From Phycisphaerae bacterium (GTDB lineage: Bacteria > Planctomycetota > Phycisphaerae > Sedimentisphaerales > Anaerobacaceae): DNA of 60,925 nucleotides. Location of the stretch: assembly GCA_017993835.1 (NCBI GenBank), contig JAGOLX010000037.1, positions 1 through 60,925 of the forward strand, in the 5' to 3' direction. This document shows, piece by piece, positions 24,707 to 27,035 of the stretch. The translations under genes and the position numbers were made by a program. The first letter of the stretch is position 1, and the number at the start of each line of letters is the position of its first letter. The notes beneath the pieces are model-generated. The model had not been told where the DNA came from. It was given only the letters and a program-made list of their open reading frames with translations, and searched no databases.

Positions 24707-25267
24707 TCATTGCTGTCGATCGGGGAGGGCAGGCTCGTTGGGCGAAGGCACAGAACCCTCGGAAGACCTGCGGAGTCGTCCCTGCCCGCCGCGAGGGCCG
24801 AACGGCCCCTGGCGACCGGAGCCGAATCGGCCGGCGCCACGGTGAAACGGGCCGGGAAGGCCGCGCAACAGGTCCCGCCAACGCTGTTGCTGATCCGGAT
24901 TGAGCGATGTCGAGATCTCCTCGTCCATCGCATCGAGTTCCTTGCTGATCTGCACGCGGCCCTGCTCGCGGATCTCATTGAGTCGCTGCATGTACTTGCG
25001 GAGAACCGGCCTGACCTGCTCGGCCTGCCCCGCTGACAGGCGCAATCGCGGCACGATTCCATCCTCGATGGCGACCAGGTCCCCCCCGACCGGCATCGAC
25101 GGCTCTGCACTCGTGCGACGGAGCATCAACAAGGCGCCCGCGGCGCCAATCGTCAGACCGGCAATCAGGATGGTCACGCCGAAGAAGGCCATTCGCCAGC
25201 GGTGGAGCCGTTGCAGCAGGACCATCGGGTTGTCCGGATTCTCAAGCCGGCTCATTGAATCGCCCAT
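24707..25267 (-). CDS. Membrane-anchored Spy/CnrX-like sensor of the ECF cassette
   Basis: The 186-residue protein has one N-terminal membrane anchor (FFGVTILIAGLTIGAAGALLML, given here as the segment at about 29-50). A predicted periplasmic helical domain follows with two LTxxQ-like motifs, LSAGQ and LNPDQ, the mark of the Spy/CpxP/ZraP/CnrX group. The C-terminal 45 residues are Gly/Arg/Pro-rich and low complexity. The ATG at 25267 has GAGG upstream; an alternative ATG at 25255 overlaps the preceding stop as ATGA, so the genes are coupled either way. By position and topology it matches CnrX, the anchored periplasmic metal sensor of CnrYXH. The His-rich metal ligands of CnrX are not evident. 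Confidence 0.7.
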   Translation of the reverse strand: MGDSMSRLENPDNPMVLLQRLHRWRMAFFGVTILIAGLTIGAAGALLMLRRTSAEPSMPVGGDLVAIEDGIVPRLRLSAGQAEQVRPVLRKYMQRLNEIREQGRVQISKELDAMDEEISTSLNPDQQQRWRDLLRGLPGPFHRGAGRFGSGRQGPFGPRGGQGRLRRSSEGSVPSPNEPALPDRQQ

Positions 25268-25518
25268 GAAATCGCCTCGACAATCTCATTCAACGGCCCG
25301 GCAGACCGCGTGGAGAAGACGAATGCAGTCACCGCGACCGGCACTGCGACAGCGGAGGAGACGGCCGCCAGCCACATCCAGAACCGCTCGGCCACCGTCA
25401 ACGGCTGGACCGGCCCGGCCGTGAGCATGGCCAGCACGGCACTCGTCACATCGACGCGGGGAACGCGCTCCTCGCGGGCGCGAGCCGCCAGTTCTTCGAT
25501 CTTCTGATCCCATTTCAT
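25252..25518 (-). CDS. Short single-TM putative anti-sigma factor (CnrY-like)
   Basis: This 88-residue protein starts at the ATG at 25518, overlapping the sigma-factor stop as TGATG; the frame upstream merely runs through the sigma gene. Residues 1-45 are charged and cytoplasmic, and one membrane segment lies at about 46-70 (FWMWLAAVSSAVAVPVAVTAFVF, residues in order but not quoted further). The rest is a short periplasmic tail. There is no zinc anti-sigma motif. Size and topology match short membrane anti-sigma factors such as CnrY (about 95 residues). Function is inferred from its coupled place between an ECF sigma factor and an anchored Spy-like protein. Confidence 0.62.
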   Translation of the reverse strand: MKWDQKIEELAARAREERVPRVDVTSAVLAMLTAGPVQPLTVAERFWMWLAAVSSAVAVPVAVTAFVFSTRSAGPLNEIVEAISWAIQ

Positions 25519-26195
25519 CAGGTCAACTCCACACCGTGTTGCTCCAGCAGCCTGCGGAGCCGGTTTCTGGCACGCAGCGTCTGAACCTTCACCATCGTCT
25601 TGGTCCATCCGGTCCGCCGCGATGTCTCGACCACGTCGCATTGCTCCAGGTATCGCAGCGTCAGGACCAGACGGTCCCGCGGGGCCAGTTGAGCGAACAC
25701 GTGATGCAGCACCTCAGCCGCCTCGTTCGGCTCGACCGTCCCAGCGACGCGGTCGCCATCCATCGCACCGTCCCATTCCTGAACGTCGAACGACTCCGTC
25801 CGCCGGCGGCGGGCCTTCTCCTTCCAGTGCCGATAGCCGACCCGCGTCGCGATGCGAGCCAGCCAGTGCTCCAGCGGCGCCTTGCCGCGATACCGGCTCA
25901 GGCTCAGATACGCTTCCACGAACACATCCTGCACCAGTTCCTCGTGAGTCCCGCGATCCCGGCTGAACCGCCAGAGGATGCGAGCGACGTGGTCCTGATG
26001 TCGCTCCACGAGTCGGCGATAGGCATCGGCATCCCCTTGCTGCGCCTGCCGGACGTCTTCTACGTCATCTCGAATCGGGACGGCTTGCCCATCAGGCCTC
26101 TCCGACTGCGACGGCGTGACGATGGCGCGCACCGCCGCGAGGATGGCGGCCTCGATCCAGACAGGTCTCAGCAATGGCAGGCTGGCGTCGATCAT
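25518..26195 (-). CDS. ECF-family RNA polymerase sigma factor
   Basis: The protein has about 225 residues from the ATG at 26195; a TTG farther upstream is in frame but unlikely. Sigma region 2 is clear (DAYRRLVERHQDHVARILWRF as two blocks, ELVQDVFVEAYLSLSRYRG as the core-binding/-10 element, WLARIATRVGYRHWK). Region 4 shows LAPRDRLVLTLRYLEQCDVVE and a helix-turn-helix TSRRTGWTKTMVKVQTLRAR (blocks listed separately). There is an N-terminal extension of about 45 residues of no known fold. Stop and start overlap with the downstream 88-residue membrane gene, the usual layout of a sigma/anti-sigma pair. Its trigger is probably an envelope signal. Confidence 0.93.
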   Translation of the reverse strand: MIDASLPLLRPVWIEAAILAAVRAIVTPSQSERPDGQAVPIRDDVEDVRQAQQGDADAYRRLVERHQDHVARILWRFSRDRGTHEELVQDVFVEAYLSLSRYRGKAPLEHWLARIATRVGYRHWKEKARRRRTESFDVQEWDGAMDGDRVAGTVEPNEAAEVLHHVFAQLAPRDRLVLTLRYLEQCDVVETSRRTGWTKTMVKVQTLRARNRLRRLLEQHGVELT

Positions 26196-26269
26196 TGAAC
26201 ACAGCGTAAGAAAGAACAGGGTCCCCAGCAAGAGGAATTCCGATCCGGGGGTCCGTCGCGCAAGGCATC

Positions 26270-26303
26270 GGCCCCGCGGGCTACTATCAGCACCCGCGGG
26301 GCC
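26270..26303 (-). terminator. Hairpin between the secreted Spy-like gene and the sigma gene
   Basis: An 11-bp perfect stem, GGCCCCGCGGG with its complement, surrounds a 12-base loop just after the stop of the 26327-26965 gene and before the sigma factor. There is no U-tract, so it may be a partial terminator or an mRNA-stability stem that lowers sigma expression relative to the upstream gene. Confidence 0.55.
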
Positions 26304-26326
26304 GAGACCTCAGGATGAACTGACAA

Positions 26327-26965
26327 TCACGGACGTCGCCCCATCGTCTGGCGAAAAGCCCGGATTTCCTCCCGGGTCAGTGCACCGTTGCCATCGGCAT
26401 CGGCCTTGTCGAACATCTGTTCGATTCCCGTCCCGGCGGGATTCGCTCTGGGTCGGGGACTGGCGAGCTGCCCTGCTCCCCGCGGGAGCCTTCGGCCGGC
26501 CGGATCGCCCTGCAGCGCCGGTCCTCTGGCCCCGCGACCAGGCCGCATGGCCCCCGGCCGCACCTGCTCGAGCTGCTTCGCCTGCTCATCTGTTAGAACC
26601 TCACGGATCGACGCCATCGTCTTGGACCGCGCCTTGTCCAGAATGTCGCGGATCTTCCCGACCTGTTCGTCGGTCAGACCCAGCCGACGGGCCAACACCT
26701 CCCTCGCGCCCAACTGCCCCAATCCCAGCGGACAGAGCGCTCCTTGCCCGGTCCGGCCCGCGCCGAGAGGACACCATGCCCCGGGACCGCCTTGTGCCCG
26801 TCGCGGCGCCGCACCCTGCCTGGCGTAACCCTGCCCCCTTCCCTGCCCACGATTCAGCCCTCGTCCCCGGCCAGCCCCGGCGCCCCACGGCTGTGCCATT
26901 GCCGGGCCGTTCAGAAGGACCAGGATTGCGCCTGCAACAATCGGAACTGTCCATTTCGTCTTCAT
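26327..26965 (-). CDS. Secreted Spy/LTxxQ protein with EF-hand
   Basis: This 212-residue protein begins after AAGGAG with a signal peptide ending PAMAQ. A Gly/Arg-rich stretch follows (about 25-85), with two CPLG repeats. Then comes a helical Spy/CpxP-like segment with two exact LTxxQ motifs (LTDEQVGKIR, LTDEQAKQLE, about 98-140), another low-complexity linker, and a C-terminal EF-hand with loop DADGNGALTREE. Spy-like proteins act as periplasmic chaperones or metal buffers, and the EF-hand suggests calcium binding. It lies just upstream of the ECF cassette on the same strand, which makes it a likely target or soluble partner of that system. Confidence 0.78.
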   Translation of the reverse strand: MKTKWTVPIVAGAILVLLNGPAMAQPWGAGAGRGRGLNRGQGRGQGYARQGAAPRRAQGGPGAWCPLGAGRTGQGALCPLGLGQLGAREVLARRLGLTDEQVGKIRDILDKARSKTMASIREVLTDEQAKQLEQVRPGAMRPGRGARGPALQGDPAGRRLPRGAGQLASPRPRANPAGTGIEQMFDKADADGNGALTREEIRAFRQTMGRRP

Positions 26966-27011
26966 ATCCGGCTCCTTTCAGTCTAGTGTTTCCGGTTACG
27001 CCGGGATAGTG

Positions 27012-27035
27012 AACGAAGCCCCCTCGCAGGTTACA
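27012..27035 (-). promoter_or_regulatory. ECF-type promoter candidate
   Basis: On the minus strand TGTAACC (27029-27035) is followed by CGTT (27012-27015), resembling the AAC ... CGT pattern of ECF-sigma promoters. It lies 47-70 bases before the Spy-like gene start. The spacing is slightly shorter than usual, so this is suggestive only. Autoregulation by the neighbouring sigma factor would be the natural reading. Confidence 0.28.

Follow-up and report, generated by a model that had tools for sequence, protein, structure and literature searches.

A putative CnrYXH/SigAb-type ECF sigma switch in a Phycisphaerae bacterium, with a secreted LTxxQ protein as its predicted main target

What would an ECF sigma factor listen to, and what would it switch on, when its gene is followed by genes for an 88-residue single-transmembrane protein and an anchored protein with LTxxQ-like motifs, and is preceded by a gene for a secreted protein carrying motifs of the same kind? 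This question is raised by a locus in a 60,925-nucleotide stretch of DNA from a Phycisphaerae bacterium (the window). A first, sequence-only reading had described these four genes; all four are present on the minus strand, in the order P (the secreted protein), S (the sigma factor), A (the small protein) and X (the anchored protein), as confirmed by direct checks of open reading frames, overlaps and motifs (Table 1). In the reading that we favour, with a probability of about 0.72, the cassette encodes a CnrYXH/SigAb-type ECF sigma switch whose main target would be P, a soluble cousin of the cassette's own sensor.

Table 1. Features of the locus (positions are those of the window).
Feature	Position	Strand	Basis or remark
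Putative target promoter TGTAACCT-N16-CACTATCC	27004..27035	(-)	upstream of P
Secreted protein P (P0004)	26327..26965	(-)	two LTDEQ motifs and EF-hand; RG-rich
Stem-loop between P and the sigma operon	26262..26311	(-)	folding z -3.25
Possible sigma-70-like promoter TTGCTG-N17-TACGCT	26203..26231	(-)	by-eye alignment with L002, L003 and L005
S, ECF sigma factor	25518..26195	(-)	Sigma70_r2 2e-13, r4_2 4e-9 (Pfam)
A, 88-residue single-TM protein	25252..25518	(-)	linkage, covariation, two cytosolic helices before the TM
X, anchored LTxxQ-like periplasmic protein with RG/GP-rich tail	24707..25255	(-)	PF13801, Spy profile, AF2

The sigma gene probably begins at the ATG at 26195 (MIDASLP..., 225 residues), a start common to the related loci L002, L003 and L005, and its stop codon is overlapped by the start of A as TGATG. 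X probably begins at the ATG at 25255, which gives a 4-nucleotide ATGA overlap with A, and this junction is conserved in 117 of 139 cassettes; an in-frame upstream ATG at 25267 is a less likely start. The TGATG and ATGA junctions described earlier stand, and the alternative 15-base overlap, which belongs to the start at 25267, is the less probable one. The stem-loop upstream of the sigma operon is strong; it is kept in three relatives, with 4 of its 16 pairs changed on both sides, and lacks a strong U-run; it is possibly a terminator or a processing site. The sigma-70-like element, which was not scored in the consensus scan, ends 7 nucleotides before the sigma ATG, so that a leaderless mRNA is suggested.

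The gene order was examined in relatives by searching whole genomes with the profile of A alone. Among the 130 distinct A proteins recovered, the sigma gene lies upstream in 126, X lies downstream in 126, and both neighbours are present in 123, which is above chance. A scan with the sigma factor yielded 68 loci, and in nearly all of the close ones the sigma gene is likewise followed by A and then by X. We thus consider the sigma-A-X linkage well supported by sequence, and the conserved gene order that the first reading called for was found. Within the phylum, 38 of 392 sampled genomes carry A, and within the order 71 of 161 do. A few loci found with the sigma factor are titled Hydrogenedentota, Sumerlaeota, Armatimonadota or deltaproteobacterial; these come from metagenome bins and may include misplaced contigs. 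A plasmid search with X gave no match. The bacterium's own genome contains a second S-A-X cassette (L101:9168-10764, G000 C102), which has a variant promoter, TGTCACC...CACTATAATG, about 80 nucleotides before its sigma gene and, judged by eye, adjoins type II secretion genes.

The sigma factor itself is a regular ECF protein: Sigma70 regions 2 and 4 are both above the Pfam cut-offs and there is no region 3, TIGR02937 matches at 8e-22, and the sigma profile matches CnrH (4cxf_A) at 3e-18. Pfam gave nothing convincing for A. Its AF2 model (mean pLDDT 73) has helices at 3-16 and 25-33, followed by one at 42-87, i.e. a short two-helix cytosolic segment and then a single transmembrane helix, which is the CnrY-type (class II) architecture. 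Covariation was analysed by mean-field coupling in 139 S-A-X triplets, with S-X pairs as a control and with shuffled pairings; the numbers given here are alignment columns, which for A equal the residue numbers of the window protein. The top S-A couplings, A7-S120 (z 8.7) and A7-S140 (z 7.4), fall in sigma-4 and exceed the S-X control (maximum 6.8) and the shuffled pairings (maximum 6.5) in every setting tried. The side-chain sizes at these positions are compensating, V120 and L140 being found with F7, and L120 and F140 with I7. Positions 23 to 32 of A couple more weakly to S23, S26, S35 and S89 on the sigma-2 side, and these couplings are not above the S-X control. MI-APC puts other S-A pairs first, and the tree-independent pairs for A7/S120 (4.3-4.7 in the same and 0.1-0.3 in the opposite direction) have a median p of 0.125 at low power. 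Taken as they are, the couplings support a contact of A residue 7 with sigma region 4 and, more weakly, of residues 23-32 with region 2. This pattern supports the topology described for CnrY on CnrH, where helix 1 binds sigma-4 and helix 2 binds sigma-2 (PMC7406223, PMC4598750). We therefore propose that A is a class-II-like anti-sigma factor, and the partnership between the sigma factor and the small protein, suggested from the window alone, gains support from both the linkage and the covariation.

The covariation between S and A can also come from shared ancestry. A and X might then be no more than co-transcribed envelope proteins that do not regulate the sigma factor; the near-obligate linkage and the fact that the S-A couplings rise above the S-X control make such a bystander role hardly probable at all. 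A direct sequence kinship of A with CnrY is suggestive only. The two align in the same register by hhalign (E 0.059), and the Pfam family of CnrY (PF17524) matches one of 53 A members at E 0.0062. Both CnrY and the window A have VDV at residues 22-24. This match looked striking at first, but a shuffle test without Met1 gave only p 0.014 in the natural register and 0.60 when all registers were allowed, and we did not retain it as a striking sign of kinship.

The sigma-TM-periplasmic order is also that of rpoE-rseA-rseB and of SigAb-AabA-AabB, an operon thought by its describers to work by an RpoE-like scheme (PMC12153292). One could imagine that X shields A, as RseB would shield RseA, until stress leaves A open to regulated intramembrane proteolysis, with no conformational release involved. 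However, no more than about 20 residues of A lie outside the membrane, the cytosolic part consists of two short helices and not of the four-helix domain of the RseA type, and an unsystematic look revealed no linked protease gene. We consider such a proteolytic switch unlikely.

X was previously noted to carry two LTxxQ-like motifs, and they are readily seen as LSAGQ and LNPDQ, inexact forms of the consensus. Their leucines are 45 residues apart in 131 of 139 members, as opposed to 76 in CnrX (51-127) and 73 in Spy (34-107), and AF2 predicts one straight helix, from 75 to 117. Since the spacing is so much shorter, X appears to lack the hairpin of Spy and CnrX. Profile evidence nevertheless links X to the Spy/Metal_resist family: PF13801 (Metal_resist) is matched by 42 of 53 members with E values of 0.1 or less, the best being 7e-9, the window X itself scores 0.0015-0.014, which is below the curated cut-off, and the X profile matches Spy (3oeo) at 2.8e-4. 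CnrX gives a short, weak match to X by hhalign. Fold searches with the X model found no match to Spy or CnrX, but with only one chain and an extended helix to compare they cannot tell folds apart. Profiles thus place X near the Spy/Metal_resist family, and its hairpin length and predicted straight helix set it apart from CnrX.

This bears on whether X could be a true metal sensor, binding a transition metal as CnrX binds nickel or cobalt, with the secreted protein sequestering the metal. Metal_resist is the Pfam family nearest to X, the similarly organised SigAb system is copper-responsive (PMC12153292), and in one relative the promoter motif is followed by an outer-membrane efflux gene. Against this, the 139 members of X contain no conserved column of His, Cys or Met, nor conserved His/Met/Glu ligands of the CnrX type, and the cassette in the window has no linked efflux genes. 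The earlier remark that obvious His ligands are lacking holds well beyond the window, where the periplasmic domain of X has a single His. In view of the fixed 45-residue spacing, the straight AF2 helix and the lack of a conserved metal ligand, X is not CnrX proper, and we regard metal sensing as quite unlikely.

The secreted protein P begins with a signal-like N-terminus (MKTKWTVPIVAGAILVLLNGPAMAQ) and contains, as the first reading had it, two exact LTxxQ motifs (both LTDEQ) and a canonical 12-residue EF-hand loop for Ca2+ (DADGNGALTREE). It thus combines the signal peptide and paired motifs of LTXXQ/Spy secreted proteins with a calcium-binding loop, even though the Pfam matches are both below the curated cut-offs (EF-hand_1 5e-5, just below; LTXXQ 0.0034). 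Orthologues of P lie upstream of the sigma gene in L002-L006, and secreted-looking proteins are found directly upstream of it in 52 of 127 loci. Fifty of these were scanned, which gave LTXXQ in 19, Metal_resist in 15 and EF-hands in 11, the groups overlapping; about 18 of the 52 have neither LTxxQ nor EF-hand by pattern. In four loci (L017:4889-5683, L021:4994-5668, L022:4742-5677 and L016:4825-5709) the place of P is taken by long repeat proteins that are rich in Gly, Arg and Met and have neither LTxxQ nor EF-hand.

The EF-hand had led to the suggestion that calcium might be the signal; in a calcium sensor, the EF-hands of the secreted protein and of some X proteins would report it. Such loops are indeed present in the 11 upstream proteins and, C-terminally, in the X proteins of L032, L149 and L151, but most upstream and X proteins, the window X among them, have none. 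With EF-hands in 11 of the 50 proteins scanned upstream and in about 3 of the 139 X proteins, there is no support for calcium as the signal in general, and we consider a calcium sensor very unlikely. The fused loops of L032, L149 and L151 are of interest in their own right, as they link the sensor and the output modules in one protein.

A putative bipartite promoter, TGTAACCT-N16-CACTATCC, is newly identified here upstream of P. The regulon was searched by pattern, and within two mismatches the 6.37-Mb genome has no other such site; a looser form gives two sites, the second of which (C47, L207) has no clear target. The strict motif lies upstream in 51 of 139 cassettes; of its 55 sites, 52 have a spacer of 17 or 18, counted from TGTAAC to CACT. 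In relaxed form the motif is found in 82 of 138 loci, as against 17 on the reverse strand, and in 89 genomes of the family there are 37 sites compared with 3 for a reversed control. The motif stands directly before sigma in 44 of the motif-bearing cassettes, an arrangement resembling autoregulation, and further upstream, as before the P-type gene, in 38. Across relatives the fourth base of the -35 element, A, T or C, tracks V, M or T at sigma residue 161, which ranks first among all columns of the sigma factor and lies within the recognition helix of region 4.2; the match involves only 4-6 changes on the tree. An initial guess at an ECF pattern, AAC-N-CGT, matched at chance level and was dropped. 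We take the promoter and its main target, P, to be well supported by these comparisons. Because P carries the cassette promoter it is better read as an output gene than as a second sensor, and an output role is likely.

In the switch that we favour, A would be held in the membrane with its two cytosolic helices docked on the sigma factor, the first at region 4 and the second at region 2, in keeping with the covariation, while X, anchored beside A, would keep it inhibitory through a periplasmic helix bounded by the LTxxQ-like motifs. Some change in the periplasm, with stress on the envelope or on protein folding as the likeliest, would alter X so that A releases the sigma factor, and the latter would then direct RNA polymerase to the bipartite promoter. 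The one strong site in the genome would drive P, which may work on that stress itself and so weaken the signal, in the manner of CpxP, ZraP or Spy. Envelope damage is plausible as the signal; a general role of this kind is less likely for calcium and for transition metals. We also offer, as a tentative extension, a planctomycete-wide form of envelope sensing with a nearly single-promoter regulon, in which X and the output embody a single LTxxQ theme, the former in the membrane and the latter in soluble form, X has become a straight helix of fixed length with the hairpin of Spy and CnrX lost, and the output titrates the ligand of the sensor, closing the loop.

The closest described wiring is that of CnrYXH from Cupriavidus metallidurans. 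Both systems encode in one operon an ECF sigma factor, a small single-TM anti-sigma factor and an N-terminally anchored Spy-related sensor (both roles being proposed ones here), and the covariation supports for A the helix 1/sigma-4 and helix 2/sigma-2 topology of CnrY. The differences are in the gene order (S-A-X as opposed to Y-X-H), in the spacing and metal ligands of X, and in the absence of linked efflux genes from the window; no TGTAACC/CACTA motif was seen on reading the sequence just upstream of cnrY or cnrC. The CnrYXH analogy proposed at the outset thus holds for the wiring, but not for the hairpin length and metal ligands of X, the gene order or the promoter, and the similarity of A to CnrY is weak. 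Spy, CpxP and ZraP are LTxxQ periplasmic proteins with a feedback role. The cassette resembles their systems in the motifs, in a secreted protein that would be made under an envelope pathway and in the match of the X profile to Spy; in contrast to them it would be ECF-driven, its output has an EF-hand, and the motif spacing is far shorter. In SigAb-AabA-AabB of Acinetobacter baumannii the order of sigma factor, small TM anti-sigma factor and periplasmic partner is the same and the genes overlap; CnrY-like binding is predicted there and a very small direct regulon is described (PMC12153292). AabB, however, has a predicted cleavable signal peptide whereas X is anchored, the promoter is GTCAAC/CGTT and not TGTAACC/CACTA, and the direct targets are sigAb, relA and an sRNA instead of a secreted LTxxQ protein. 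By description, the proteobacterial RpoE8 operon of Azospirillum brasilense, uncharacterised in that report, has a like composition: a sigma factor, a hypothetical protein and an annotated periplasmic heavy metal sensor (PMC12826043).

The cassette suggests that wiring of the CnrYXH/SigAb kind is old and serves as a switch for general purposes, and that it is not a metal speciality. To our knowledge, little is known about envelope-stress signalling in planctomycetes, and the cassette offers, from sequence alone, a complete and testable candidate circuit of sigma factor, anti-sigma factor, sensor, promoter and target that is both compact and widespread. The promoter variants matched to sigma residue 161 could also serve as material for studying or engineering orthogonal ECF switches.

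Motif sites outside the cassettes precede additional P-like genes, exported-looking O-methyltransferases and one outer-membrane efflux gene, and some others have no clear target. The efflux gene (PF02321; L237:24-1448) lies directly behind the motif in one relative. The O-methyltransferases (PF01596), which have a signal-like N-terminus, share the motif at L221:1658-2575 and L222:1777-2712 and also occur downstream of X in L011, L014, L021, L023 and L024; an extracytoplasmic methyltransferase is puzzling.
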